This document shows, in pieces, positions 33,693 through 47,682 of a stretch of DNA of 64,000 bases. The stretch lies in assembly GCF_018614775.1 (NCBI RefSeq), contig NZ_JAGGOF010000002.1, positions 62,001 to 126,000 on the forward strand. The letters run 5' to 3'. The stretch's first letter is position 1. Every line of letters starts with the position of its first letter. Both the position numbers and the translations under genes were made by a program. The notes under the pieces were generated by a model, which was given only the letters and a program-made list of their open reading frames with translations, was not told the DNA's origin and ran no database searches. The stretch comes from Pseudomonas fluorescens. GTDB taxonomy: Bacteria; Pseudomonadota; Gammaproteobacteria; Pseudomonadales; Pseudomonadaceae.

Positions 33693-34742
33693 TCAAAACA
33701 CCACCCGACGCACCCACCCACTCAACGGCACCACCTGATGACCCGGCCCCGGCAACAACCGCCCAGCCAGTCCCATGCCTTCGCTGACCAATACCGCGTC
33801 TTCCACCACGCACAAGTTGGATGGGGTATCCAGGTCATGGGCGAGCACGGTGATCTGGGCAGTTTGCAGATTGCAGCTCAGCAGTCGGCCGCTGAACCGG
33901 GTAAAGCCGCCGTGAAGCGCTTCGCCGTTCCAGTCAGGCAGCAAGGGTTGTTGCACGCTGTCGCAGAGTTCCAGCACCAGTACATTGCCTTTCGGGCATA
34001 ACGCCAGTCCGGTGGGCAGTTGCAGTCCGCTGATGAGCCTGTCGATCTGTCCGCTGGCGGGCCAGACGCGGATCACCTGGCCGGCCTTGTCGGCGAAGTC
34101 GATGCCCTTGCGGGTCGGGTCGGTGCGCAGTTCGCCGGAGAACAGGCTGATGAGCACGGCGTCTGTCGCCGGTTCGTACACCAGGGTGACCGGGACGGCT
34201 TCCTGGCCCTGGTCCAGGTCGGGCAGTTGGACCAATACCCGTTCGTCCTGGCCGGGGGCGAACTCCACCAATTGATTGGTATCGGGTTTGACGGCCAGCC
34301 AGCTGCGGCGGGTCGGGTGGTAGCACAGCGCATTGAGGTTGCCTCGGCTGTGAAACACTGGTTCGGGCGGTGTGTATTGCAGGTCCAGCAGTTTGGAACC
34401 CCCGACGTAATCGGTCTGGCTGACCAGGCAGCGCCCGTCGCCGCAGGCGATGTCCGACAGCCCCATGATTTCATCGCGGAACATGCGCGCCTGCATGTTC
34501 ATGGCGCGAAAACCGTCGGCCAGTGTTTCCCGGGGCAGGTAGGCGCCGGGGTTGTTCATATCGGGTCGCAGTCGGCTGATGCGACCACTGAAGGTCTGTT
34601 CCGGCAGGCCTGAACCGGCTTCGACCAGCAGCAGGCTGCCGTCGGCCTGCACACAAAGGCCGCGCGGGTTCAGCAGGCCTTCGGCGATGATAGTGCTGGC
34701 ACGCAGGGTTTCGCTGGGTCGCGCAGGGATATGCATGGGCAT
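33693..34742 (-). CDS. Beta-propeller protein (ScyD/ScyE-like), last gene of the ebo operon
   Basis: 349 aa with repeated propeller blades (NPRGLCVQADGSLLLVEAGSG, LPTGLALCPKGNVLVLELCD, TPSNLCVVEDAVLVSEGMG). No signal peptide is visible after the start I choose (ATG 34742, GGAGAG upstream; ATG 34736 is an alternative). The blade style resembles the ScyD/ScyE/NHL-repeat proteins of scytonemin clusters, which fits the ebo genes upstream. It starts 30 bp after the preceding stop. The role is unknown; substrate binding or an enzyme on the exported metabolite are options. Confidence 0.65.
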   Translation of the reverse strand: MPMHIPARPSETLRASTIIAEGLLNPRGLCVQADGSLLLVEAGSGLPEQTFSGRISRLRPDMNNPGAYLPRETLADGFRAMNMQARMFRDEIMGLSDIACGDGRCLVSQTDYVGGSKLLDLQYTPPEPVFHSRGNLNALCYHPTRRSWLAVKPDTNQLVEFAPGQDERVLVQLPDLDQGQEAVPVTLVYEPATDAVLISLFSGELRTDPTRKGIDFADKAGQVIRVWPASGQIDRLISGLQLPTGLALCPKGNVLVLELCDSVQQPLLPDWNGEALHGGFTRFSGRLLSCNLQTAQITVLAHDLDTPSNLCVVEDAVLVSEGMGLAGRLLPGPGHQVVPLSGWVRRVVF

Positions 34743-34771
34743 GAGTTTCTCTCCGTGTGAATAGGGGGCGA

Positions 34772-36586
34772 TCACTGCGGCGGTTGCCACGGTTCACCGG
34801 TGAGATAGGCCCGCAGCAGCGCCCGCTGGCAGAGCGACATCGAGCGCACTACGGGCATGAACAGGGTGGTGCCTTTGTAGGCGTCCGAGGTGCGAGCGAG
34901 AATGGGGTTCTTGGCGCCCATGATCGCGTCGGGTTGATTCAACGGGATGTAGCGTGACATGGCGGGGAAGGCCAGGTAGTGAAAACGCAGGACGTTCGGG
35001 TACATCAGCGGCCAGGTGATGGTGGTGCCCTGGGGAATGCCGAAATCGGTCTGGGCGTACTTGCGAAAGTTGGTGAGCCAGGCGCTGCTGGTGAAGCCTT
35101 TGGCCGTGCAGGTCAGCGCGACGAAACCGGCCTGGGCGGCGCTGCCCGGCTTGAGGGTGACGGGGAAACTGACTGAAAGCTCGCCCGCGTTTACGGTCAG
35201 CGAATCCGGGAAATCGAGAAAGTCCCAGTACTTCGGATCAACGTACACGGGCGCAGGTGGCCCTGGCTTCAGGTCTATTTCGGTAGCGCTGGGGACCGCT
35301 CCGCCCAGGTACCTGACCTGCAGGGTGACCGATAGGCCATTGGGGTAGTCCTCCAGATAGACGTTGCGCTGGTCGGCATAGATCCGATAGGTCGATTCGG
35401 TGACCTGCAACGTGGTGTCGGCGACGGTGCCTGGCGCGTTGATCGCCAGGGCATTGGCCTGCACGGCCTGTTGTTGGGTCGTGGTCAGGGGCAGGTCGAC
35501 GATGCCGCCATACACGTAGTAGTCGAGCAACGGGCTGTGGGTCGGGTCCAGGGCGCCCAGGGGGGTGGTGCCGGCGGTGATGGTGACTGTGCCGTAATTC
35601 GCATTGGGCCCGATGGGGCTGGTGATGTCGTCCCTGACCGCCCGGAAGGTTTCCTTCGGGATGACGTTTACCATGTCGATGCTCAGGTAGCTGTTGTTTT
35701 CGCCCAGGTCGGCATAACCGGCGTTCCCTGTGCACGGGTTGACCAGTTGCCGACCGGGCTGGCAGCCCAGCGGCTCGTCGGCGAAGGCCGGGGCGAGTGT
35801 GCCGATGACCCGGCCGATGCTCGGGTTGGGCGTGTATTTGCCGGCGGCGTAATCGGCGTCCAGCTGTGCGGTGGTCATGGTCGGGCACATCTCGAACATG
35901 ACGAAGCGCAGGACGATGCCTGTCGCGCCCGGCGCCTGGATGATCGAGCGCAGCCCACTGCTGTTCTGGTTCCAGCTGACGATGCTGCTCAGGGGGAAGG
36001 TCAGCTGGAAGGTCCCGCTGGCGTGGAAGGAGCCTGGCGCATCCATTGTGGCCGGCAGCAGCACTCGGCCCGCCACGTCGAAACTGCTGCACACGGCATT
36101 GCTGTGGATCAACAGCTGTATGTCGTTGGTGCCGCCGATTTGCAGGCCGCCGACGAAGATTTGCGTAGTGGTCGAGGCGGTGGGGTCCAGGTCCACCATC
36201 ATCGGGCCGGAAACGGGGGCCTGTTGGGTCAGCGGATCCACCGAGCCGAGCAGGTAGACCGGCTGGCCCACCAGGTCACCGGTGGTGCTGACACTGCCCG
36301 GAGCACCTTGAGAGCTGATCAAGGCATTCTGCATGTCGACCACGTGTTGCCCGTAGTGATTCCAGCCGCCGGCGGTGTACTTCTTGCCGTTGGGCGCGTT
36401 GATCATGCTGTTCAACTGGTCATCGGTATAAGACTGGGCGCCGGGTGCCAGGGTCGAGGTGGTCAGGTCGAAGAGCGGCCACTTGGCATTGCCGTCGTAA
36501 GGAATGGTCGGGGAGTTGTTCGGCACGCTGACGTCCGTGCGGATGCCGCCCCAGAAATTCAATCGTGGTCCGTTCAGGATGCTCAT
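34772..36586 (-). CDS. Large unknown protein, paralog of the gene at 38947
   Basis: 604 aa, starting MSILNGPRLNFWGGIRTDVS. No signal peptide, no membrane helix, no family I recognise. It is homologous to the 786-aa neighbour: both start MS(I/V)LN.PR, share a middle block ending in LAPAFADEP / LGLWFADEY, and share the C-terminal pattern YPNVLRFHYLAFPAMSRYIP then MPVVRSMSLCQRALLRAYL. The sequence is rich in Thr, Pro and Gly beta-type segments. It starts four bases after the stop of the c-type protein at 36590, repeating the pairing seen at 41318/38947. Confidence 0.75.
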   Translation of the reverse strand: MSILNGPRLNFWGGIRTDVSVPNNSPTIPYDGNAKWPLFDLTTSTLAPGAQSYTDDQLNSMINAPNGKKYTAGGWNHYGQHVVDMQNALISSQGAPGSVSTTGDLVGQPVYLLGSVDPLTQQAPVSGPMMVDLDPTASTTTQIFVGGLQIGGTNDIQLLIHSNAVCSSFDVAGRVLLPATMDAPGSFHASGTFQLTFPLSSIVSWNQNSSGLRSIIQAPGATGIVLRFVMFEMCPTMTTAQLDADYAAGKYTPNPSIGRVIGTLAPAFADEPLGCQPGRQLVNPCTGNAGYADLGENNSYLSIDMVNVIPKETFRAVRDDITSPIGPNANYGTVTITAGTTPLGALDPTHSPLLDYYVYGGIVDLPLTTTQQQAVQANALAINAPGTVADTTLQVTESTYRIYADQRNVYLEDYPNGLSVTLQVRYLGGAVPSATEIDLKPGPPAPVYVDPKYWDFLDFPDSLTVNAGELSVSFPVTLKPGSAAQAGFVALTCTAKGFTSSAWLTNFRKYAQTDFGIPQGTTITWPLMYPNVLRFHYLAFPAMSRYIPLNQPDAIMGAKNPILARTSDAYKGTTLFMPVVRSMSLCQRALLRAYLTGEPWQPPQ

Positions 36587-36589
36587 GCT

Positions 36590-37879
36590 CTATTCCTCGT
36601 CCTTGATGGTTATGGCGGCAGGCGAATTGGCGAATTTGAACAGGTAGGAAAAGTCGGCCTTGTAGGGGTTTTTGACCGGTGTCGCCATGGAGTGGCAGTT
36701 CATGCAGCTGCTGTTGGGCTGGATATAGCTTTCCATGGTCACGTTGGCCGAGAGCGCCGGGGTCGGCTGGCCCAGGGGATTGCTGGGGTTGTCCGGCATC
36801 AGCGGGCGCTGGGTGGTGATGAGTTGGTAATACTTCAGCACGCTGTTGCGCAGGTCCGGGTCGCTGCGGTAGCGGGCGTTGACCTCCTGGGTGACTCCGG
36901 CAATCGGCGTGACCCGGTTCAGCGGGTTCGGCGTCTGGAAAGTGGTGCCGGGCTTGGGCACGCAGACCAGGTGGCCGCCTTGGGTCTGCCAGTCGCAGGG
37001 GGACTGGTTGAGACTGGCGGCGGGGGTGCTGGCGTTGAAGTAGGAATAGGCTGTGCCCGTTGCCGGCTGATCGACCCACTGACCGTGCTCCAGCGTTTTG
37101 GGCGCAACGTTGTCGATCTGCTCGAAGGTTGACCAGATCCACTGCGGATAACCGTTCACCTTGGTGATCAGGTGCAGGCCCACCAGGCCCAGGTAGGCTT
37201 CGGTGACACCGTTACGCTGGCCCTGGTCATCGAAGGTGGCGACGCGGGCGAACTGGGTCAGGTAGTGGCTGGCATTGTCATTGGACGTGAGGATGCGCCA
37301 GCTCGACTTGACCTCGATGACGCCGTTGGGGAAGTTGATGTTACTGGCCTTGGAGACGATATTGGCGTTGTAGAACTGGTTGTTGACGATGTAGTCGTAG
37401 GAGGTCTCGTTGGCCGAGATGTCGTAGTAGGTCGGGTTGCCGGCCTGGTCGATCAGCCAGCCGCCGACGGCCTGGTCGACGGCATTCACCTGGGTGCTGT
37501 TCTTCAGCGCGGCGATGTTGATGATGCCCAGGCTCTTGGCCGCCTGCGGGGTATTCCAGGGGCCCGGGTCGGCCCCTTGTGGCAGAAAGATTTCCGCCAC
37601 GGTCTTGTAGGTTTGCCAGACGGTGTAGCCGGGGTCCCCAGGCTGTTTGCTGCAATCGGGATCACCGCGCTGCCCATTCTGCGCGGGCCAGTTCAAGGCG
37701 ATGAACAACTGCCAGCTGTACTGATCGAACAGGTCCTGGCTGGCGTTGGCGGCGGGTGCCGTGGTCGGGGGTTGGCAATTCAGGCTGGTCTGTGTCGGTG
37801 TGTTCCGGGCCTGGGTTTGATCCAGCGCCAGGGCCGGCAAACTGGCGAGCCCCAGCAACAGCATGGTGAACGTTTTCAT
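36590..37879 (-). CDS. Secreted protein with single c-type heme site, paralog of the gene at 41318
   Basis: 429 aa with signal peptide (MKTFTMLLLGLASLPALA). A single CxxCH (CMNCH, residues 392-396) lies near the C-terminus, so one covalent heme is expected in the periplasm. Motifs shared with the 380-aa paralog are SWQLFIALNWPAQ, EVKSSWRIL, and GLHLITKVNGYPQWIWSTFE. These aromatic motifs are typical of an uncharacterised cytochrome-like family. It is paired with the 604-aa gene (three bases apart). Confidence 0.75.
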   Translation of the reverse strand: MKTFTMLLLGLASLPALALDQTQARNTPTQTSLNCQPPTTAPAANASQDLFDQYSWQLFIALNWPAQNGQRGDPDCSKQPGDPGYTVWQTYKTVAEIFLPQGADPGPWNTPQAAKSLGIINIAALKNSTQVNAVDQAVGGWLIDQAGNPTYYDISANETSYDYIVNNQFYNANIVSKASNINFPNGVIEVKSSWRILTSNDNASHYLTQFARVATFDDQGQRNGVTEAYLGLVGLHLITKVNGYPQWIWSTFEQIDNVAPKTLEHGQWVDQPATGTAYSYFNASTPAASLNQSPCDWQTQGGHLVCVPKPGTTFQTPNPLNRVTPIAGVTQEVNARYRSDPDLRNSVLKYYQLITTQRPLMPDNPSNPLGQPTPALSANVTMESYIQPNSSCMNCHSMATPVKNPYKADFSYLFKFANSPAAITIKDEE

Positions 37880-37908
37880 GGCAATCCTTCGTCTTGAGTC
37901 GATTCACT

Positions 37909-37934
37909 GTGGGAAGGAGCAAGCTCCCTCCCAC
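37909..37934. repeat. Short REP-like palindrome inside the operon
   Basis: GTGGGAAGGAGC-AA-GCTCCCTCCCAC, a 12-bp stem with one mismatch, between the genes at 36590 and 37964. It may reduce read-through or protect the upstream mRNA. Confidence 0.7.
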
Positions 37935-37963
37935 ACACTCATTCCAAATCCATAAATGAATCG

Positions 37964-38887
37964 TCAGGGTTTGCGCTGCATCAGTTTGTTCCACTGGGCT
38001 TTTTGGCCGTTGCTCTGTGAAGCCGGTGGCTCGAACAGCTGGCAGGGCGGTGGATTGGACGGGCACATCGCGGCGACCTGTGCCCAGGTCTGGGCCGGAT
38101 CAGGCTTGGCGATACGGAAGTGGGTGTAGTTCTGGCTGACAATCGGTGCGTTGGCGACGCTGGTGTCACCGGAGAAATAGAACGACTGCGCAGGCCGGTA
38201 GGGTGGTTGGCCAGCCATCTTCTTGTAGAAGGCGTAGCCGAACAGGATCGGCCCTTGCGGCGAGTCGAGGTCCAGGGCGTAGGCCTGCACGCTGCCGTCG
38301 AGGTTCTTGCTGCGCTCGGCGCTGTAGGGCAAATGCTGGATGAAGTCTTGCCTTGGCGGATGATTCATCGGCGAGAACATGCAGCAGGCCGGCATGTCCT
38401 TGGGGCGGTCCTGCGGGTAGGTCAGGAAGTACGCCTTGTTGCCCAGGGACACGAAGGAGCAGGTGTAGTTGTTGTTCTTGATCGGGAAAATCGGCAGGCA
38501 GTATTTCTCGTAGTGCTCCATCATCGCGCCGAAGCCGTCGCCATCCGGTGGGATGTAGGTGGTGTCGTAGTAGCTTGTCCCGCGGGAGACGGTGTAGTCC
38601 GCCGGGCTGAGGGTAGTGGGTGGATTGCTGTAGGGCGGCGGGTTCTTCTCGTAGTTGTGCATCACCCGGTACATGGTCCAGTCACTGATCCAGAACGCCG
38701 GGAAAAACGGATCGGACGGGTCGCCCGGCGCGCGTTTGGCGATGCAGTTGCCGTTCTGTTCGTTGCAGCCTTCGGTGTTGTGCACCCCCATGGTGAAGTA
38801 CACGGCGCCGCTGTCCTGCTGGGCTAAAACGCAAGGGCTGAGCAGCAGGGTCAGCAGCAACAGCCGTTTCAAAATGCTGGCTTTCAT
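37964..38887 (-). CDS. Cys-rich secreted protein of unknown function
   Basis: 307 aa with signal peptide (MKASILKRLLLLTLLLSPCVLA). The mature part has about eight Cys (EGCNEQNGNC, EKYCLPIF, YTCSFVS, PACCMFSP, AAMCPSNPPPC), suggesting disulfides in the periplasm, and is rich in Tyr, Pro and Asn. It contains no CxxCH. I do not recognise the family. It lies between the two paralogous c-type/large-protein pairs. Confidence 0.7.
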   Translation of the reverse strand: MKASILKRLLLLTLLLSPCVLAQQDSGAVYFTMGVHNTEGCNEQNGNCIAKRAPGDPSDPFFPAFWISDWTMYRVMHNYEKNPPPYSNPPTTLSPADYTVSRGTSYYDTTYIPPDGDGFGAMMEHYEKYCLPIFPIKNNNYTCSFVSLGNKAYFLTYPQDRPKDMPACCMFSPMNHPPRQDFIQHLPYSAERSKNLDGSVQAYALDLDSPQGPILFGYAFYKKMAGQPPYRPAQSFYFSGDTSVANAPIVSQNYTHFRIAKPDPAQTWAQVAAMCPSNPPPCQLFEPPASQSNGQKAQWNKLMQRKP

Positions 38888-38946
38888 ATGTCACTCCTGT
38901 GAAATGCCGGGCGGCGGGTTCGCCACCCGGTGGTCCTGTGAAACCG

Positions 38947-41307
38947 TCAGAGGTCGCCGTAGTCGCTCATCTTCAGTGGCATGGGCGGGTAATTGCGCTT
39001 CACCAACGCCTTGGCCCACAGCTCCAGCACGGCGCGTCGGCTTTGCGACATGTCGCGGGTGATGGGCATCGAGAGCGTGCTCTCTTCCTGGTACTCCTTG
39101 CTGATCAGCACGATCAGCTGATCAACGGCGCCTTCGACCCGTGCCTGGGAGTTGAGCGGCATGTACTTGTTCATGATCGGGTACAGGTAATAGAACGATT
39201 GCAGCACGCGGGGGAAGATGAAGTTGTCCCAAAGCTCCTGGGGGGCGTTCGGATCCTTGTAGATGGCGTTCCATTTGTTGACGAAGTCCTGTTGCAGCTG
39301 CGGGTCCAAGGGCAGGACCCGCAGCGGGGCGAGGAAGTCGATGTAGGCCTGGGGCAGTTTGAAGCTGAAGGGGATGGTCGGGTCGCGTTGGTCTTCCTTC
39401 ACGAAAAAACGCAGCGTAGGGAAGCCCGGGGCAACCGCCCTGAAGCTCAGTTGAGCGATGCCCTTGGCGTCGGTCGTGGTAGTGACATAGGCGTAATCGA
39501 TCGGGCTGGACTGGCTGTTGTCCAGCGTCCCGGTGGTATAGATCGCCGCATCGAAGGCCAGGCACGGGCGCAGGTCGATGGCGATCGCGCTGCTCGGGCC
39601 ATGCAGGAACTGCTGATAGCCGATGGGTGTACCCGTTGGTGTCTCCACCGATTGCAGTGCGGTGAGCCGGCGACCACTGCCGGTCGCCAGGTAAGGGGAC
39701 ACCGGGGGAGCGTTCTCGAATCGCGGCAGGTTGGCGGTGTTCTTCGTGCGGTCTGCCGGGTTGTCATAGAACAGTGTGAAGTCGGCCGCATTGCTGAAGG
39801 CCAGGTAGTAGTCGCTGGTGGTGACCATGTAGGGGTTGTCATATTCCGCCACCCACAGCGTGGTGTTGGCAGCCGGCTGGCCATTTTTCTGCACCATGAT
39901 GTTCAGCGTCTTGTGGTCCCCCACATCGATGAACGTACCACTCTCGATCACTTCGGCGGTCCACACCTGCTGGGTGGCGGCAATCTTCGGCTCCTCTGGC
40001 GCCGGGCCCTGTTGGTGCAGCTCCAGCGGACCTGACTGCAAGGTGGCCTTGTCTGCGTCGCTCAGGGTGAAGTCCAGCAGGCCTGAGCGCAGGTCGAAGG
40101 CGGATTGTTGATACTGGTCGAAACCGAAACTCACCACCGGGGTGAACACCCCATTTTTGCGCGCCCCCAGTTGGTAGTCGCCGGCCTGGTATTTTTCGGC
40201 GGTCAGAATGGGGGCCTTGGGGTCTACCGGATAGAAAGGAAAGGTGTTCCCCAGGTCCAGCGACAGGGTGTTGCCGGTGATTTGTGCCGACGTTACGCCC
40301 AGCGTCATGGATTTCTCCTGGGTGCCTTGATACAGACTGACCGCTTCGGCGGGCACCAGGCGCGGCCCGGCGGGGGCAGTGGGGTATTCGTCGGCGAACC
40401 ACAGGCCCAGGGTCGCGGCGGTGCGGCTGTAGGCGGGGTTGAAGAAGATATCGGCGACGTTGTTCAGGCCCGCCTCGTACATCCTCTTCACGTTGTCCAT
40501 GGCCTCCGGGGTCGTCGAGTGGGTATCGATCGGTGGGAAGTCATTGAACACGCCGTTCCTGTCGTAACAGGTCAGGTACGTGGAGAACCTGAACATCAGG
40601 CCCTGGGCGTTCTGCTGCTTCATCTGCTGTTGAAGATTGTTCAGCAGCGACGAGTTGCCGATGACCCACTCCAGGCTGTCCTGGGTGAAACAGGTCTGCC
40701 AGGTGGTGGTGACATACGCCAGGCCGCCGAGGTTCGCCCACTTGAAGTTAAGGAAGCGGTCCAGCATGCGGTGCTGGCGATTGAGGGTCAGGCCGCAGGT
40801 AGCATCCCCCAGCACCAGTTTGTCGAAGTACAGCGCGGTGAAGGTGTTCTGCCACGGGCTGATATCCACGAAGCGGGCGGCGGAAGGCCCGGTGCTGCCA
40901 AAGGGATTGCCATTCAACTGGTAGCTCTTGCCGACCAGTGCATCCTGGGCGATGTAGGTGTTGGCTTGCAGCTCGCCGCCGATGATCAGCGATTGGGTCT
41001 GGTTGTAGTTCACCGTGCCGCAGGCATTGTCGCCGAACAGGTCCCATTCGGCGGGTATGAACGGGGGTCCGCCATTGGTGGGTACTTGCGTCACATAGGT
41101 CGGGAAGGTCTCCACGGGGCTGATCGCCCAGGGCATCAAGGTGGTGGGAGCGTTGTCCGGTGTGATGCCGTAGGTTTCCACAAACGGCCAGTTGATATCC
41201 ATCTTCACCGCGTCATAAAGCGGCAGCACGTCGTTATTGTTGGCCGTCGGCGGGTTCCAGAACATATGGCCGTTGAGGTAGATGCGCGGGAAATTCAATA
41301 CGCTCAT
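38947..41307 (-). CDS. Large unknown protein, paralog of the gene at 34772
   Basis: 786 aa, starting MSVLNFPRIYLNGHMFWNPP, with no signal peptide and no membrane helix. It has an N-terminal region shared with the 604-aa paralog, a longer middle with Ig-like beta segments (LNIMVQKNGQPAANTTLWVA, ISFRAVAPGFPTLRFFVKED-type), and a shared C-terminal helix block YPIMNKYMPLNSQ then MPITRDMSQSRRAVLELWA. No catalytic motif stands out. It starts 10 bp after the stop of the 380-aa heme protein. Function unknown. Confidence 0.75.
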   Translation of the reverse strand: MSVLNFPRIYLNGHMFWNPPTANNNDVLPLYDAVKMDINWPFVETYGITPDNAPTTLMPWAISPVETFPTYVTQVPTNGGPPFIPAEWDLFGDNACGTVNYNQTQSLIIGGELQANTYIAQDALVGKSYQLNGNPFGSTGPSAARFVDISPWQNTFTALYFDKLVLGDATCGLTLNRQHRMLDRFLNFKWANLGGLAYVTTTWQTCFTQDSLEWVIGNSSLLNNLQQQMKQQNAQGLMFRFSTYLTCYDRNGVFNDFPPIDTHSTTPEAMDNVKRMYEAGLNNVADIFFNPAYSRTAATLGLWFADEYPTAPAGPRLVPAEAVSLYQGTQEKSMTLGVTSAQITGNTLSLDLGNTFPFYPVDPKAPILTAEKYQAGDYQLGARKNGVFTPVVSFGFDQYQQSAFDLRSGLLDFTLSDADKATLQSGPLELHQQGPAPEEPKIAATQQVWTAEVIESGTFIDVGDHKTLNIMVQKNGQPAANTTLWVAEYDNPYMVTTSDYYLAFSNAADFTLFYDNPADRTKNTANLPRFENAPPVSPYLATGSGRRLTALQSVETPTGTPIGYQQFLHGPSSAIAIDLRPCLAFDAAIYTTGTLDNSQSSPIDYAYVTTTTDAKGIAQLSFRAVAPGFPTLRFFVKEDQRDPTIPFSFKLPQAYIDFLAPLRVLPLDPQLQQDFVNKWNAIYKDPNAPQELWDNFIFPRVLQSFYYLYPIMNKYMPLNSQARVEGAVDQLIVLISKEYQEESTLSMPITRDMSQSRRAVLELWAKALVKRNYPPMPLKMSDYGDL

Positions 41308-41317
41308 GTCATGCTCC

Positions 41318-42460
41318 TTAGCGTTGCCACTGGGCGCGTTTCAGCGACCAGACAAAGTCCAGTTTTTTGTAACCGGCGAAAGCCGAGTCCGGCAGCGGAG
41401 TGGTGGGGTAGGCGATGCCGCCTTGATGCGGAATGGCGAAATTGAAGTAACCCTTATCGGTCGAATAGGCGGCGGTGCCATGGCAGGCCAGGCACGACGA
41501 CGTGCTCTGGAACGCCGATTCCAGCTGTGAGTTGGCCAGCACCTGGGTGACGGGTTGGAACTCCACGCCGATCAGTTCGTACTTCGACAGGGTGGGGTTA
41601 CTGGCCTGGAACTGCGCATTGACCGGCTTGGCCGCCGGTGTCGGTCCGGTGGTGTTGGTCATCGGTTCGGCTTTTGGCGCATTGGTCACCGTGTACTTGC
41701 TGTTGTTGATGTTTTCGAAGGTGGTCCAGACCCAATTGGCGTTCAGCTTGTTGACCACGTGCAGGCCGCTCAGGGCGGCATAGCCGACCGCGTAGGTGCC
41801 GTCGCTCTGCTGGTAGTAAGCCTGGGCAATGTAGTAGCCATCGTTTTCCAGCGTCTGCTTGTAGGCCGTGTCCGTACCGATCCACAACCAGGCGGATTTC
41901 AACTCCCAGGCGGTGGACGGGAACACCAGGTTGTCCGGCAGCGCGGCCTGGCCATTCATGTTGTAGACCTGACGCTGCACGATGTAATCGAACGTGTCCT
42001 GGCCCATCAGCAATTGGAAGCGTACCGGGCTGCCTTTTTGGGACGCGGGCACGGCACCGCCCATTTGCAGGATCAGCCCGTCGACCTGTTGGGTGGCATT
42101 GAGGTTGTGCAGGGTCCGGGTCAGGTCCAGGCCTTCTGCCTGGGCTTGCTTGAGCACCGCGTCCGGCGGCGGCACCGACGCGCCGTAGGCGCCGGGAGGG
42201 GCGCCATTGGGCAGGTAGACCTGATCGGAGGGCTTCATGGTTTCCCACTCGAGGTTGGGGCTCCCGGTGGTGGCGGGCTGATTCAGGCAGACGAACCAGT
42301 TCCAGGCCATGGTCTCGGGACTCTTGGCAAACGCTGCCCGGGTCTGGTCGACGTTGGCGCCAAATTGCAGGAAATTGCTGCAATCGAAGCTGTTGGTGTT
42401 CTCAGCCTGAGCCAAACCGGCCACGGCACTGAGAACGGTTATGGATATGGCTCGCCGCAT
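41318..42460 (-). CDS. Secreted protein with single c-type heme site, paralog of the gene at 36590
   Basis: 380 aa with a signal peptide (MRRAISITVLSAVAGLAQA) and one CxxCH (CLACH, residues 323-327). It shares with its paralog the blocks ETMAWNWFVCLNQPA, TAWELKSAWLWIG and GLHVVNKLNANWVWTTFENI. A monoheme periplasmic redox or electron-transfer role is likely from the motif; no partner oxidase is visible. Its start overlaps the eboF 3' end by 22 bp, tying the extension genes to the ebo genes. Confidence 0.77.
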   Translation of the reverse strand: MRRAISITVLSAVAGLAQAENTNSFDCSNFLQFGANVDQTRAAFAKSPETMAWNWFVCLNQPATTGSPNLEWETMKPSDQVYLPNGAPPGAYGASVPPPDAVLKQAQAEGLDLTRTLHNLNATQQVDGLILQMGGAVPASQKGSPVRFQLLMGQDTFDYIVQRQVYNMNGQAALPDNLVFPSTAWELKSAWLWIGTDTAYKQTLENDGYYIAQAYYQQSDGTYAVGYAALSGLHVVNKLNANWVWTTFENINNSKYTVTNAPKAEPMTNTTGPTPAAKPVNAQFQASNPTLSKYELIGVEFQPVTQVLANSQLESAFQSTSSCLACHGTAAYSTDKGYFNFAIPHQGGIAYPTTPLPDSAFAGYKKLDFVWSLKRAQWQR

Positions 42461-43884
42461 GGAAGCTCCTTGGCATTGGCCGTGTCGGTATGAGGGTGCC
42501 CCAGGAAGTGTTCGAGGAGCAGTTGTTTCACGGCCGTGGCCGCCAGGTGCGGCGGCAATGGCAGATCACAATTGGTGATGAGCAGTGGCCCGGTCCGGGT
42601 GCTGCCGGGCAGGCGCCCATGGCTGCCGCGAACCAGCCTGGTGTCCAGCGGAATCAGGTCCATGTAGTAGCGCAAGCCGAGCTTCTTCTGAAGCAGGCGG
42701 CGCGCCACTTTCCATTGGGGGAAACGAATGGCCGGGTCGATGAACAGCTCCAGCGGGTCGTAGCCCGGCTTGCGATGGATGTCCACGGTGCGGGCAAAGT
42801 CGGGTGCCTTGCGCTCGTCGAACCAGTAGTAGTAATCGAACCAGAACCCCGGCTCGGCCACGGCCACCAGCTCGCCACTGCGTGGGTGATCCAGTTGCCA
42901 GGCCCGTTGTTCGATTTTATCCAGCACGCGCTCGATGCCGGGCTGGCGCTGCAACAGCGCCTTGACCCGAGGGATGTCTTGCGCTTGCTTCACGTAGACA
43001 TGCGCGATCTGGTGATCGGCCACGGCGAAGGCCGCGCTGGCCCCGGGGTCGAGCAGCTCCCAGCTCAGCGATTGGCGCACCTGCAACAGGCCTTCCGAGC
43101 GCAACAGGCGATTGATGGACACCGATTGCCGGACCGCTTCGATGCCGTATTCGGACAGCAGCATCACCGCCGCGCCCTGTTCCTGGGCGAAGGCCAGCAG
43201 ACGCCCCACTTCGCCGTCGATGGCCCGTACCTCGTCCGCAATCGATGGATGATCGGGCCCCAGCCGTTGCAGGCTGTAGTCGAGATGGGGCAGGTAGGTC
43301 AATTGCAAATCGGGCCGGTTCAGCTGGAACTCGGCGATGGCGCAATCAACGATCCAACGGCTTGACGCAATGCCGGCCGCCGGGCCCCAGAAGCTCGGGA
43401 AGGGGAATTTGCCGATCTGTTCCTCGATGCATTCGTGCAACGTGGCTGGCGCCGAATACAGGCCGAAGACTTTGCGCCCGTCGGCGGGGTAGTGAGGGCG
43501 TGGGGTGATGGCGGCGTCCACGTCCGCATACATGTTGTACCACCAGAACAACTGGCTGCAACGAAAGCCGGGGAGCTGGCGCTTGAGCACTTGCCAGACC
43601 TTTTCTCCCTGGATCAAGGCGTTGGGTTGCAGCCAGAAGCGGACTTCGGCCTGATCGCGAAAATACCAGCCGTTGCCCACGATGCCGTGCTCCGAAGGCG
43701 CCTGGCCGGTGAGGATCGAGGCCTGCACCGTCGATGTGACGGCCGGGAACATCGGTTGCAGGGTCGCCATCCGGGCGGTTTTCAGCAGGGCATTGATGTG
43801 CGGCGTCGCGTCCCCCAGCAGTGCCGGCGTCAGCCCCACTACGTTGATCAGCAGCAGCGGTTGACGCGGGCGATCAGCGGGCAT
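42439..43884 (-). CDS. Alkaline phosphatase/nucleotide pyrophosphatase family protein (EboF type)
   Basis: 481 aa, type I phosphodiesterase/nucleotide pyrophosphatase fold without a signal peptide. The nucleophile motif is FPAVTSTVQASILTGQAPSEHG (Thr in AVTST) and metal-ligand segments include YLPHLDYSLQRLGPDHP, LSEYGIE and DHQIAHVYVK. It belongs to the ebo gene set, where a phosphatase-like protein follows eboE. It overlaps the eboE stop by 11 bp. Confidence 0.82.
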   Translation of the reverse strand: MPADRPRQPLLLINVVGLTPALLGDATPHINALLKTARMATLQPMFPAVTSTVQASILTGQAPSEHGIVGNGWYFRDQAEVRFWLQPNALIQGEKVWQVLKRQLPGFRCSQLFWWYNMYADVDAAITPRPHYPADGRKVFGLYSAPATLHECIEEQIGKFPFPSFWGPAAGIASSRWIVDCAIAEFQLNRPDLQLTYLPHLDYSLQRLGPDHPSIADEVRAIDGEVGRLLAFAQEQGAAVMLLSEYGIEAVRQSVSINRLLRSEGLLQVRQSLSWELLDPGASAAFAVADHQIAHVYVKQAQDIPRVKALLQRQPGIERVLDKIEQRAWQLDHPRSGELVAVAEPGFWFDYYYWFDERKAPDFARTVDIHRKPGYDPLELFIDPAIRFPQWKVARRLLQKKLGLRYYMDLIPLDTRLVRGSHGRLPGSTRTGPLLITNCDLPLPPHLAATAVKQLLLEHFLGHPHTDTANAKELPCGEPYP

Positions 43885-45103
43885 TGGCGTACGCCTCCAG
43901 CGCTGGGACGTGCAGTAGCTGGTGCTGGTGCAGTTGCGCTTCGACCCAATGCAGTTCCGCCGTGATCCCCTGGAGTTGGGCGTGCTCGGTGGTGGGACGC
44001 AACGGCGCGGGCAGGACGCCCCAGCTATAGGTCTCCACCTCCAGGACGGGGCGAAAATCCCGGTGCTCGGCGAGGAAGTCGAAGGTCTGCGTCAGGGCGA
44101 CCTGACTGCCGCTGAGCTCGGGCAACAGCAAGTGTTCGCTGAACAAAGGAATGTGAAAGTGGATGCGCAGTTCGGGGTGTTGCCCCGGATTGTTCGCGCA
44201 TTCGTCGAGGGCGACGGGAAGGTCCGCCCAGGCCGATAGCCGGTCCTGCGCATCGCGCGCCTTCACTTGATGCAGGTAGGTGGTTTCGGCGAAGTCGCCC
44301 AAGGTCTTGAGCACGTGTTCACGCCGCTCGACATCTTGGGGCAGGCGGCAGATCAAGGCGTTGGACAGCTGGATCTTGCCCACGGGCACCCCGGCCTGAC
44401 GCAGCTTGTCCAGCGAGTGATAACAGTCTTCGAACATCACGGCCTGGTGGCAGACATCAAAACACAGCGCCAGATGATCGTGGTGCGGGTCGCTGGCTTG
44501 CAGGTGCTGGAAAAAGGCAATCGCCTGGTCGGTGTTTTCCAGCACGCAGTCCGGTTCCATCTCCAGGCAGAACACAATTTTCTTGCCCGTCTCCAGGTGC
44601 AGTCTCGCCAATGAAGCCGTGAGTTGACGCAACTGGTATTCGGCGCGCTCCTGCAACGTCGGGTTCCAGTTCGCGGCATAGCCCAGCGGCACGCTGGAGA
44701 TCACGCCCTGCTGACAATCCGGCGGCAAGGCCTGGGCGAGGATCCAGGCCAGGTTCAAGCTGTACGCCAGGCGTTTCTGATCGGCCCAACTGGGCAGATA
44801 GACCTCGGCTTTCACGGCGCCCTGATGAAATTGGCCGTAGGGAAAGCCGTTAAGCGAAGTCAGGCGTAGCCCACAGCGTTGCAGCAGGTTGAGAAAGTCC
44901 GTGCTAGCCGCTTTCTGTTGCAACTGCGCTGCGGCGAGGTCGCTGATCCACAGCCCGCTGTCCTGCTCCTGCAAGCCGCGCAGGCTTCGTACGCCCTGGA
45001 AATGCGCTTCGATGGAGGACCGGAGCCCGGCGAGGTCACGGGTCGGATGCACATTGCTGCAGTAACCGATCTGCCCGGCTGCCCAACCCGTGCCGGCCGT
45101 CAT
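43874..45103 (-). CDS. eboE: EboE, metabolite traffic protein (sugar-isomerase-like TIM barrel)
   Basis: 409 aa. The start ATG 45103 overlaps the eboB stop (ATGA). The N-terminus GYCSNVHPTRDLAGL, then LGLRLTSLNGFPYGQFH-type and CLEMEPDC...LCFDVCHQAVMFED segments, match the EboE family, an AP-endonuclease/xylose-isomerase-like barrel with putative metal residues. In Nostoc the ebo genes are needed to deliver a scytonemin precursor to the periplasm; the biochemical step of EboE is not known. Confidence 0.85.
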   Translation of the reverse strand: MTAGTGWAAGQIGYCSNVHPTRDLAGLRSSIEAHFQGVRSLRGLQEQDSGLWISDLAAAQLQQKAASTDFLNLLQRCGLRLTSLNGFPYGQFHQGAVKAEVYLPSWADQKRLAYSLNLAWILAQALPPDCQQGVISSVPLGYAANWNPTLQERAEYQLRQLTASLARLHLETGKKIVFCLEMEPDCVLENTDQAIAFFQHLQASDPHHDHLALCFDVCHQAVMFEDCYHSLDKLRQAGVPVGKIQLSNALICRLPQDVERREHVLKTLGDFAETTYLHQVKARDAQDRLSAWADLPVALDECANNPGQHPELRIHFHIPLFSEHLLLPELSGSQVALTQTFDFLAEHRDFRPVLEVETYSWGVLPAPLRPTTEHAQLQGITAELHWVEAQLHQHQLLHVPALEAYANAR

Positions 45104-45984
45104 TTGATCACCGGTTCCTGGCCCCGCAAGGCGGAGTTGTCCTGCCATTGGCGACGCTGGTCGATGGGCAGCGGGGTACTGACCAGGGTTTTATCCAGCT
45201 GGCCGCTCTGGCCGAAAAAGTCCACCGGATTATGGAACAGCACCTGCTCGACCTGGGTTTCACTGAAGCCGGCCGCCAGCATCGCCTGGCCCGTCTTGGG
45301 CACCTTGAGCGGGTCGCTGATGCCCCAGTCGGCGGCGCTGTTGACCACCATTTTCTCCGTGCCGTATTGCTGGAGCAGGGCGACCATGCGCTGTTCCGAC
45401 ATCTTGGTGTTGGGGTAGATGGAGTGGCCGCGCCAGCAATCGCTTTCCAGCACCAGCGGCAGGGTCAGTTCGTTGAGGTGGTCAATGATCACCAGATGCT
45501 CGGCAATCCCCACTTCACGGATCACCGCCAGGGTGCGCCTGGTGCCGCCGATCTTGTCGCGGTGCGGTGTGTGGACCAGCACCGGCAGGTTGAATTGCCT
45601 GGCGAGTTCCAACTGGGCGGCGAGGAAACGATCCTCTTCGGGGGTGATGTCGTCGTAGCCGATTTCGCCGACCGCCACGACGCCTTCCTTCACCAGGTAG
45701 CGCGGCAGAATCTCCAACACCTCATTGGCCACCGACAGATCATTGGCCTCTTTGGGGTTGAGACCGATGGTGCAGAAGTGATGGATGCCGAACATGCTGG
45801 CACGAAAGCGCTCCCAACCCAGCAAGGTGTCGAAGTAGTCGATGAAACTGCCGACACTGGTCCTGGCCTGGCCCTGCCAGAAGGCGGGTTCTATGACCCC
45901 GGTGATGCCGGCGGCCGCCATGTTCTGGTAGTCATCGGTGGTGCGGCTGACCATGTGGATGTGCGGGTCGAAATACTTGAGCAT
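45100..45984 (-). CDS. eboB: EboB, TatD-family metal-dependent hydrolase
   Basis: 294 aa. The TatD metal site starts DPHIHMVSRTTDDY (H8, H10), with VGEIGYDD, LVHTPHRDK and IIDHLNE as later ligand strands. It is part of the conserved ebo order. It starts 38 bp after eboA and overlaps eboE by four bases. Confidence 0.87.
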   Translation of the reverse strand: MLKYFDPHIHMVSRTTDDYQNMAAAGITGVIEPAFWQGQARTSVGSFIDYFDTLLGWERFRASMFGIHHFCTIGLNPKEANDLSVANEVLEILPRYLVKEGVVAVGEIGYDDITPEEDRFLAAQLELARQFNLPVLVHTPHRDKIGGTRRTLAVIREVGIAEHLVIIDHLNELTLPLVLESDCWRGHSIYPNTKMSEQRMVALLQQYGTEKMVVNSAADWGISDPLKVPKTGQAMLAAGFSETQVEQVLFHNPVDFFGQSGQLDKTLVSTPLPIDQRRQWQDNSALRGQEPVIK

Positions 45985-46021
45985 GGTGAATCCTCATCAG
46001 AAAAGGCGGGACCGTTGTGCA

Positions 46022-46795
46022 TCACTTCGCTGAGGGGCCGACCAGGTAGTCGTGCCATTCCGGCGGCAGGCGCTGCTGCTGGTTCAGGCCGGTCAAGCGC
46101 TGGCGTTGCGCCGGGCTGAGCAAGTCGAAGGCAATCACCCGGGGCAGACCGACCGACACCGTTCGTTCGGCGGCGAGTTGTTCGTCCAGCAGGTCGAGGG
46201 CCAACTGATTGAGGCTGACGCCCTGTCGTTGTGCCAGGCCGATCAGGCGCCGGATGTCGAGGCCCATGCCCAGCGTCTTCAGCACCAATTGGTGGAAGGC
46301 CCGTTCGCTGTAGTGTCGCGATGGGTAGAGGGTGTCCAGGGCGAGGGCGGCAAACACCTGGTTATTACTGGTACGCCCGGCCTGCAACGCCAGCTCCACG
46401 CAGAGCCCGCGGCGATCGAGCCAGTCGAAGGCTTTCAGGGTGGCGATCTTTTCCTGGTCGTCGCCCCACAAATACAGTTGGCGCAACACGGGCAATTGCT
46501 CGGCAGCGGGTTGCTGCTCCAGCACCTGGGCCAGCAGCAACGCCCGCGCCAGTTGAACGCTGCTCCAGCCGGCACAGTCGGGCAGCTCACGTTCCTTGAG
46601 GTGGCGCTTGCACTGGCTGCTCAACAGCGCCGCAGTGCGGGCGTCCGGGTGTTGCGCCAACTGTTCTTGTGCCTGGCGCCACCACTGCAGCTCGCTGTCA
46701 TCGAGCTGTTGGCCGAACAACTGGCGATGCTCGGCGAGACAGCCCAGGCGCATGTCGAGAGCCGTCGATGGCGGCTTGGTAACGTCCGTGTTCAT
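46022..46795 (-). CDS. eboA: EboA-domain protein
   Basis: 257 aa, all-helical. Diagnostic blocks are DDQEKIATLKAFDWLDRRG and SNNQVFAALALDTLYPSRHYSERAFHQLVLKTLGMGLDIRRL, which match the EboA domain. It has no catalytic motif and probably serves as scaffold. It overlaps eboC by four bases (ATGA). Confidence 0.87.
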   Translation of the reverse strand: MNTDVTKPPSTALDMRLGCLAEHRQLFGQQLDDSELQWWRQAQEQLAQHPDARTAALLSSQCKRHLKERELPDCAGWSSVQLARALLLAQVLEQQPAAEQLPVLRQLYLWGDDQEKIATLKAFDWLDRRGLCVELALQAGRTSNNQVFAALALDTLYPSRHYSERAFHQLVLKTLGMGLDIRRLIGLAQRQGVSLNQLALDLLDEQLAAERTVSVGLPRVIAFDLLSPAQRQRLTGLNQQQRLPPEWHDYLVGPSAK

Positions 46796-47682
46796 GTCGG
46801 TTTGATCCAGCGCTGAAAGTGTGGAAGCAGAAAAAACACCAAGACACAGAGCAGGCTGCCCAAGGGCTGGTCAGCCACGGCCAGCACCAAGGCATCGAAC
46901 AGTGGCAAGGCAGCCAGGCCGGCACCGATAAACGCGCGCACCTGCCGCTGCCGGGGGTTGGCAAGGTGACGCCAGTAGTGCCAGCCCAGCCAGCCCAGCC
47001 AGAGCAACAGCACCGGCCAGAACCAGACGTTGTCGCTATAGAACGCCAAGGCCAGTGGACTCAGCATCAGGACCAGAGGGAGGCGGCTGAGCAACTGGTT
47101 GCGGTGTTCCTGGCGGGCCAGGTAGGTCAGGCCGCTGATGTAGACCCCGAGCAACAGGGCGCACAACCAGATCGGTTCCGCTGGCACCGCCAGGCTGGCC
47201 GCCGCCGTGAGGTAGAGCGCCGATCGGCAGGCGCCCATCAGCCAGACGCTGTGGGCGTATTTCTTGTGCAGCAGGTTGTAGCCAAGGATGCAGCCCACCA
47301 GCAGGGCGGCACTGCCCAGCAGCCAGTGCGGTTGATCGATCAGCCGGCTCAGGCCCAACACCGATGCAGCGGCCAAGGTCAGCAACAAAACGGTGGCCAG
47401 CCTCACTTGCTGTCGGCTGACCAGGCCAAGGGTGATGGGGCGCGGGTTCTGGTGTTGCTGGTCCCAGTCGGCGTCCAGCAAGTCATTCAACAACATGCCG
47501 GCCAGGTACAGCAGCGACAGCGCGGCCAGCAGCAGTACCCACACCAACGAAGAGGGCGGGGCCAAGGCGCCGGCACTGCTGGCAAGCAGCGCGGCGGCCA
47601 TGACGTTGGTCCATACCGTGGGCAGGTTGGACACCCGGCCCAGGGTCATCCAGGTCTTCAGGTTCAGCGGCAGCGGGCTCAT
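46792..47682 (-). CDS. eboC: EboC, UbiA-like prenyltransferase family protein
   Basis: 296-aa membrane protein with about eight helices. The first Asp-rich motif NDLLDADWDQQHQNPRPI is present, and the second region (ARQEHRN) is weak. UbiA proteins attach prenyl groups to aromatic acceptors. In ebo clusters EboC may modify or carry the metabolite in the membrane. It overlaps both neighbours by four bases. Confidence 0.87.
   Translation of the reverse strand: MSPLPLNLKTWMTLGRVSNLPTVWTNVMAAALLASSAGALAPPSSLVWVLLLAALSLLYLAGMLLNDLLDADWDQQHQNPRPITLGLVSRQQVRLATVLLLTLAAASVLGLSRLIDQPHWLLGSAALLVGCILGYNLLHKKYAHSVWLMGACRSALYLTAAASLAVPAEPIWLCALLLGVYISGLTYLARQEHRNQLLSRLPLVLMLSPLALAFYSDNVWFWPVLLLWLGWLGWHYWRHLANPRQRQVRAFIGAGLAALPLFDALVLAVADQPLGSLLCVLVFFLLPHFQRWIKPT

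Follow-up and report, generated by a model that had tools for sequence, protein, structure and literature searches.

Stand-alone VioB N-terminal-region proteins paired with predicted P460-like haem proteins in an ebo-type gene cluster of Pseudomonas fluorescens

Introduction

Why does a gene cluster keep the gene of an exported haem protein beside that of a large protein with no export signal, and keep two such pairs in the same order? The question is raised by a stretch of 64,000 nucleotides from Pseudomonas fluorescens (NCBI RefSeq assembly GCF_018614775.1, contig NZ_JAGGOF010000002.1, positions 62,001 to 126,000 of the forward strand), called here the window, to whose positions all coordinates refer. 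On the minus strand of the window, close-packed genes running from 49556 to 33693 (~16 kb) make up one cluster, in which HEME1 (41318..42460) and LARGE1 (38947..41307) are followed by SEC307 (37964..38887) and then by a second pair, HEME2 (36590..37879) and LARGE2 (34772..36586); these names were coined in this analysis. The original prediction, made from the sequence alone, had described the four paired open reading frames (ORFs) as a duplicated two-gene module and knew no described function for either family. Here we relate the large proteins to the N-terminal region of VioB and the haem proteins, by prediction, to cytochrome P460, and we propose that the members of each pair would act on opposite sides of the inner membrane.

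Repellence of Caenorhabditis elegans by P. fluorescens NZI7 is ascribed to its EDB ("edible") cluster (PMC6282210, PMC9655573). This cluster contains a full ebo set plus further ORFs with signal peptides, and transposon insertions in its homologues of eboA, eboD, or eboE leave the bacterium edible to C. elegans (PMC6282210). Escherichia coli carrying EDB produces tryptophan-derived indoles (PMC9655573). In the synthesis of scytonemin, the monomer is a cytoplasmic precursor that Ebo exports so that it can be oxidised in the periplasm (PMC6282210). EDB is also treated in PMC5736907 and PMC4406715, and the ebo genes in PMC9235831. The window likewise combines an ebo set with non-ebo signal-peptide ORFs in a Pseudomonas (PMC6282210), and its gene content agrees with that description of EDB, although its EboC-type gene scores below the equivalog cut-off; from this content we infer that the window holds an EDB homologue. 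The cluster type is already known. We found no paper that names the large proteins VioB halves or the haem proteins P460-like, in a search that did not cover the primary EDB papers, and we claim no priority. EDB is a Pseudomonas defence against grazing nematodes whose chemistry is partly known; the assignments tell which enzymes to assay and are concrete leads to how the worm repellent might be made.

Results and discussion

The large proteins as N-terminal regions of VioB

LARGE1 (786 residues) and LARGE2 (604 residues) matched the NCBIfam model for VioB (TIGR04492) weakly, with E-values of 2e-7 and 1.6e-6 and scores of 29.2 and 26.2 bits, far below its cut-off of 1250. In profile–profile comparison with hhalign, LARGE 1–767 aligned with VioB 1–620 (probability 100, E 3e-40). 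LARGE1 alone scored 191.8 and LARGE2 alone 149.8 against VioB, values that equal or exceed the score of LARGE1 against LARGE2 (147), and 30 shuffles of LARGE2 scored at most 30.2 against VioB. The large proteins are almost certainly stand-alone N-terminal regions of VioB/StaD/RebD, a known enzyme family, so that the condition set in the original prediction for its own refutation, membership of a known family unrelated to the haem proteins, applies in part. They resemble these enzymes in full-length homology to VioB 1–620, in an MSILNFPR-type start, in a C-terminal helical block, and in their setting, as production of indoles from tryptophan is reported for EDB (PMC9655573). They differ in lacking the ferritin-like C-terminal half (PF12902), for which Pfam gave no match in the large proteins, and in having no recognised VioA-type oxidase adjacent. 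PF12902 was also not found in nine of ten EDB genomes, the tenth having one elsewhere in the genome. On one short contig (L139:1-3641), a stand-alone VioB-N gene neighbours a separate gene for a ferritin-like PF12902 protein, a natural split indicating that the two halves of VioB are separable in nature. The natural stand-alone halves and this split pair are ready test proteins for asking which half does the chemistry.

VioB and RebD turn the imine of indole-3-pyruvate, which is derived from tryptophan, into coupled dimers, and RebD is also termed a catalase (PMC10076799); StaD is termed a hemoprotein in the title of a reference. In an alignment-dependent comparison, LARGE1, LARGE2, and VioB-N had no conserved His or Cys in common; all five VioB-N rows share five His and one Cys that neither LARGE family has. 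These absences weigh against an enzymatic role, in that the large proteins may not be enzymes of the VioB kind, or enzymes at all. Among the cluster's Pfam matches, moreover, no tryptophan oxidase of the VioA/RebO type that could supply the imine was recognised, and LARGE may be a carrier instead of an enzyme. Each family has conserved residues of its own, again depending on the alignment: three Cys in LARGE1, and three His and one Cys in LARGE2. Judged from these residues, the large proteins may bind a metal or haem.

By sequence, LARGE1 matched nothing in the PDB at E up to 1, and the sole PDB match of the VioB profile was the ferritin-like 3hl1, over the C-terminal half, with none for the N-terminal region. 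The predicted model of LARGE1 had a pLDDT (predicted local distance difference test) score of 85.2. Its fold matches, in a search that scarcely probed residues 1–440, were mostly to immunoglobulin-like, complement/alpha-2-macroglobulin, and similar beta-sandwiches over residues 448–665, with Z of at most 7.2, and were disregarded.

The scan of named genomes with the LARGE alignment also reached VioB loci, including one of Iodobacter that scored 1588 bits (L115; cut-off 1250) and two others, L111 and L114, with 88% and 83% identity to it, as well as VioB-like cyanobacterial proteins (L110, L112, and L117), of which L110 and L117 scored 958 and 969 bits and thereby fall short of the cut-off. In L110:7879-18849, the only one of these scanned for it, the VioB-like protein adjoins an amine-oxidase-type flavoprotein, and inspection by eye of L110 and L117:7381-19121 suggested a monooxygenase, a glutathione-transferase-like, and two P450-like ORFs. 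This cyanobacterial cluster is probably a bisindole pathway.

A predicted P460-like fold for the haem proteins

HEME1 (380 residues) and its paralogue HEME2 (429 residues) each carry a single C-terminal CxxCH haem-attachment motif, at C323–H327 of HEME1 (41480..41494) and, by alignment, at C392–H396 of HEME2 (36692..36706). HEME1, HEME2, and a third copy in the same genome had no match among the models of Pfam and NCBIfam, and HEME1 found nothing in the PDB by sequence at E up to 1. Matches of the LARGE and HEME profiles to PDB entries at E 0.74–0.91 were disregarded. We compared a predicted model of HEME1 (58-row alignment, pLDDT 84.8) with known folds. Using VIA-align, the top 17 of 36 listed rows were all cytochrome P460 or cytochrome c'-beta, with Z of 5.7–6.9 compared to 3.4 for the next row and with 126–145 residues aligned to targets 135–161 residues long; the first two rows from Foldseek were cytochrome c'-beta. 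Three results weigh against this fold: the Pfam model for P460 (PF16694) did not match the haem proteins at E up to 1, the Foldseek E-value was ~0.5 (0.48), and the VIA-align Z values are below 8, a range in which a common arrangement can score. The uniformity of the family and the gap in Z argue against a mere common arrangement. Given Z below 8, a Foldseek E of 0.48, and a model that is itself predicted, we consider the P460/c'-beta beta-sheet fold of the haem proteins likely but not certain.

To locate conserved positions, we used a broad family alignment of 28 sequences, comprising 11 of the 58 EDB rows and all 17 other matches to the haem profile (one in the window's genome). F56, K188, W191, H234, Y294, E314, and the CxxCH motif were invariant (28/28), and K188, H234, and the single C-terminal CxxCH were also invariant in the EDB set (58/58). 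The spacing of motifs matches that of Nitrosomonas europaea P460 (whose chain numbering is one above the published numbers): F-x7-K at Lys70, GL-[E/H]-x3-K at Glu96, and W-x-aromatic-x2-F followed by CxxCH. K188 of HEME1 (41897..41899; K191 of HEME2, 37307..37309) thus takes the motif place of the cross-linking lysine, Lys70, in a register set by sequence only. H234 (41759..41761; H237 of HEME2, 37169..37171) takes the motif place of the distal glutamate, Glu96, a register that follows from the lysine four residues further on and from the motif GL-x4-K. Left unforced, the profile alignment matched K188 to the cross-linking lysine and K238 to the lysine that comes four residues after Glu96; it has a two-column gap at H234, so the exact register of H234 is a reading of the motif.

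Direct profile comparison with P460 gave a mixed outcome. The broad family at full length aligned over 133 columns with the same order of elements (hhalign probability 40, E 3e-4). Set against this result, the EDB rows alone aligned with P460 at CxxCH only (probability 30), the broad family cut to residues 145–345 aligned 18 CxxCH columns (probability 42, E 2.6e-4), and removal of CxxCH left a weak signal, scoring 17.5 compared to 16.2 for the best shuffle (0/100 shuffles higher), in which the best segment was the FP..K block. Global-mode hhalign was unhelpful (E 0.85 and 0.034).

In a review table, the cross-link place holds Lys70, Lys78, or Lys106, or else Met or Phe, and the distal place Glu, Asp, Ala, or Gly (PMC11928373). 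Of 17 P460-family proteins sampled, 7 also have K at the cross-link motif and the others F, M, V, or Q; a lysine four after the distal place occurs in 23/28 haem-family members, and K or R in 16/17 of the P460 sample. The likeness extends to the predicted beta-sheet fold, the order of elements, the CxxCH near the C-terminus, and a W-x-aromatic strand that precedes the haem motif. The families differ in that the EDB haem proteins have ~380–430 residues compared to ~160–215, that PF16694 does not recognise them, and that their distal His is invariant, a residue found in none of the six proteins of the review table (PMC11928373). Among the 17 sampled proteins, the distal place held E, G, F, A, T, or V, and His in none (0/17), whereas all 28 haem-family members have His where the hydroxylamine oxidisers have a distal carboxylate (Glu96/Asp102). 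We think it probable that the haem proteins have an active site formed by this predicted Lys/His combination; if true, the invariant Lys/His of a P460-like pocket would extend P460 chemistry beyond hydroxylamine and NO. With characterised relatives for the large family, a likely fold relative (P460) for the haem family, and a published phenotype for the cluster type, the view that neither family has a described function was too pessimistic.

A possible relay across the inner membrane

As a measure of export we took the best 11-residue mean Kyte–Doolittle hydropathy within residues 1–35, which is not a signal-peptide predictor. The value was at least 1.88 for HEME1 (n = 51; 40 above 2.0; 2.21 in the window) and at least 1.65 for HEME2 (n = 41; 36 above 2.0) but at most 0.88 for LARGE1 (n = 50) and at most 1.25 for LARGE2 (n = 40). 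SEC307 (307 residues) was above 2.0 in 36/39 and at least 1.65 throughout. From the stop of the haem gene to the start of the large gene, the distance was −4 to +13 bases for LARGE1 (n = 50) and −4 to +16 for LARGE2 (n = 40), a spacing so short that a missed signal sequence on LARGE is unlikely. Hydrophobic N-termini are thus present on HEME and absent from LARGE, and by this measure the asymmetry of export in the original prediction was borne out.

We propose that each pair would serve one step on either side of the inner membrane in an EDB-type metabolite cluster. Cytoplasmic LARGE1 and LARGE2 would bind, and perhaps couple or tailor, a tryptophan-derived indole intermediate; the Ebo proteins would carry the product to the periplasm; and periplasmic HEME1 and HEME2 would oxidise it, either with peroxide or as an electron-accepting dehydrogenase, with SEC307 assisting HEME2. 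Such a relay would resemble scytonemin biosynthesis. The pair would be kept together because it serves one step before export and one after, and its proteins need not touch. The differing N-termini, the Ebo export of the scytonemin monomer, the indoles of EDB, and the co-occurrence of LARGE1 with EboE described below are consistent with this arrangement, in which we infer the substrate, the order of steps, and the chemistry. We place about even confidence in a relay around Ebo with LARGE inside and HEME outside.

Aerobically grown E. coli makes mature c-type haem poorly. The indoles made by E. coli carrying EDB may therefore be shunt products formed with the haem step immature, and an assay of EDB chemistry would need mature c-type haem.

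On a different reading of the same pairs, HEME and LARGE would make up a single complex, in effect a split VioB with a separately made c-type haem protein in place of the ferritin-like redox half; LARGE would then be exported without a Sec signal, or HEME would be partly inside. The strict adjacency of the genes, with spacings of −4 to +16 bases and HEME1 next to LARGE1 in 53/53 loci, could equally mean a complex, and it weighs against the relay to that extent. With no ferritin half in LARGE and no ferritin-like gene in nine of ten EDB genomes, a redox centre would be needed from elsewhere; no His or Cys is common to LARGE1, LARGE2, and VioB-N, and a VioB-N protein with a separate ferritin-like gene exists (L139). 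The N-termini differ, however, in all measured copies, no route by which LARGE might be exported was identified, with type I secretion outside the analysis, and relatives of HEME occur elsewhere in genomes without a detected VioB-like partner. We regard a complex as unlikely.

Paralogy and inheritance of the pairs

HEME1 and HEME2 are identical in 99/383 aligned columns (26%; BLASTP E 3e-22 in a single comparison). LARGE1 and LARGE2 match in sequence at the C-terminus (E 8e-11) and in an N-terminal segment (8e-8); their profiles align over 510 columns (probability 99.0, E 2.7e-18), and none of 30 column-shuffled controls scored above 24.3, compared to 147 for the real profiles. The four ORFs, their location on the minus strand, and their relation as paralogous pairs agree with the original prediction, as do the sequence blocks it quoted for the haem proteins, the single C-terminal CxxCH, and the start and end motifs of the large proteins.

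The scan of named genomes yielded 62 loci, from the best 80 of 84 relatives, and 53 of these (L057–L109) were classed as EDB-type; they were fetched by LARGE1, whose presence in them is by construction. They were found in Pseudomonas, Azomonas agilis, Rheinheimera faecalis, a Paucimonas metagenome-assembled genome (MAG), and a record labelled Pantoea sp. Cy-639. HEME1 adjoins LARGE1 in all 53. The second pair could be judged in 50 of the loci, as L070, L076, and L106 end too early. SEC307, HEME2, and LARGE2 were all present in 39/50 (in pieces in L100 and L105) and all absent in 11/50, with partial sets in 0/50. A Kangiellaceae MAG (L116) has ebo genes, SEC307, HEME2, LARGE2, and a ScyE-like gene and lacks the first pair. 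Thus, each pair is a unit, and the second is a three-gene unit together with SEC307. The pairing is kept, as originally claimed, and the second pair comes and goes as a block; the notion of a duplicated two-gene module stands as to two pairs, and fails in that the second is a block of three genes.

This inheritance bears on whether the pairs are functionally linked at all, or ride along in an ebo metabolite cluster as separate passengers, adjacent by chance. That the two families are usually apart outside this cluster is what passengers would show, but the second module is all-or-none in the 50 judged loci and occurs without the first pair in the Kangiellaceae MAG, and we consider chance adjacency very unlikely.

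In phylogenetic trees, HEME1 and HEME2 each formed a clade, with no established sister relation between them; constraining them together gave p = 0.247 in the approximately unbiased test. The LARGE tree placed a stand-alone VioB-N that belongs to another family next to LARGE2, on a long branch (support 85/82). A single duplication of the whole pair is neither shown nor rejected by these results.

L064 has a 43-residue remnant of LARGE2 between LARGE1 and the ScyE-like gene, probably a scar from loss of the module. Pseudomonas sp. FEN (L096 and L118, on one contig) has a cluster without the second module and with just two short eboC matches, and that same contig carries at its start an eboC match, SEC307, HEME2, and LARGE2.

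Relatives of the two families elsewhere

We asked how the families are distributed beyond the window. Among 144 related genomes, LARGE1 was present in ten, and EboE in those same ten. Among 369 gammaproteobacterial genomes, the haem profile matched in at least 8, the large profile in at least 4, and EboE in 15; among the matches listed, the haem and large profiles occurred together only in the window's genome, as did the haem profile and EboE. The large profile and EboE were also found together in G316 and G375, two of the three other genomes with LARGE-like proteins, on different contigs in each case, so that no cluster outside EDB is shown by them. A tblastn search with the window's proteins of ten ebo regions elsewhere (four shorter than 15 kb) detected no LARGE and no HEME, which weighs against the relay. 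The check named in the original prediction, whether the two families co-occur outside ebo clusters, goes partly against it: the families are paired within EDB-type loci and apart, save in the window's own genome, among the 369 genomes. Overall, the interpretation in the original prediction is partly supported.

Relatives of the haem proteins adjoin several kinds of redox enzyme. In the window's own genome (contig C95, L141:314-4414), a third haem-family protein is followed by a 204-residue ORF and a 740-residue GMC oxidoreductase; this is likely a periplasmic dehydrogenase system in its own right. In L146:289-5130, a haem-family gene adjoins genes for a LodA-type (cysteine tryptophylquinone, CTQ) oxidase and a tryptophan-halogenase-like flavoprotein, and in L144:3658-7026 one directly follows a lytic polysaccharide monooxygenase (LPMO, AA10) with a cellulose-binding domain, whose possible electron or peroxide partner it is. 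Haem relatives also lie near a flavin adenine dinucleotide (FAD) protein, with one small ORF between (L031/L142), and near a multicopper oxidase, with two ORFs between (L147). That members of this haem family neighbour LPMO and LodA-type enzymes suggests a general redox component of the periplasm, one overlooked by family databases.

Neighbours such as the GMC flavoprotein, the LodA-type quinoprotein with its flavoprotein, the LPMO, and the multicopper oxidase would suit haem proteins that are electron carriers for whichever oxidoreductase adjoins, with LARGE serving in the cytoplasm as a scaffold or a carrier of metabolites and catalysing nothing itself. The fold match, however, is to mono-His-ligated, ligand-binding cytochromes and not to electron-transfer cytochromes c (PMC11928373), the invariant K and H exceed the needs of a carrier, and Pfam recognises no flavoprotein or quinoprotein oxidase among genes 33693–49556. 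This role seems improbable to us, and for the haem proteins of the cluster we keep to oxidation of an exported product. We also entertain, as a tentative and rather doubtful extension, that the haem proteins are a large unnamed branch of P460 with a lysine-modified haem and a distal His, a hybrid of P460 and peroxidase sites; they might serve gammaproteobacteria as an interchangeable periplasmic oxidant near flavoproteins, LodA-type quinoproteins, LPMOs, and, in EDB clusters, an indole pathway derived from VioB, and in EDB the redox half of VioB might have been dropped and the oxidative chemistry moved across the membrane to haem.

Other genes of the cluster

SEC307, which is co-inherited with HEME2 and LARGE2, had no match in Pfam, in NCBIfam, or by sequence in the PDB (E up to 1). 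Upstream of HEME1, and also on the minus strand, lie genes for a type I phosphodiesterase family protein of the ebo cluster (42439..43884; PF01663, 1.3e-62), homologues of which are present in other ebo clusters; EboE (43874..45148; NF035939, 1.7e-120); an EboB-type TatD-like metallohydrolase (45100..45984; PF01026, 1.2e-11); an EboA domain protein (46022..46795; NF035938, 2e-38); an EboC-type UbiA-like prenyltransferase (46792..47682; PF01040, 1.6e-13; NF035940, 88 bits compared to a cut-off of 250); and an ebo-cluster 3-dehydroquinate-synthase-like protein with an N-terminal VTT membrane domain (47679..49556).

At the other end of the cluster, a minus-strand gene for a ScyE-like NHL-type protein (33693..34790; NHL, 0.01) overlaps the end of LARGE2. 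It scores 55 bits against NF033206 (ScyD/ScyE), below the cut-off of 80. Its N-terminal hydropathy of 1.22 in the window gives no clear signal, and 0/51 homologues are above 2.0, with start codons uncertain; the highest, 1.79, overlaps the lowest HEME2. The window shares with the scytonemin ebo/scy system its ebo genes, a ScyE-like protein, exported proteins, and, putatively, indole-type chemistry (PMC6282210). It differs in that its Pfam matches show no scyA- or scyB-type enzyme (scyC was not looked for), in that its ScyE-like protein falls below the family cut-off, and in that it adds exported haem proteins. Just upstream of the ebo genes, the window encodes a 673-residue protein with DKNYY matches (49778-51799; PF13644). 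In other ebo clusters, proteins that by eye look like exported beta-propellers adjoin at L170:227-1525 and L167:13650-15035.

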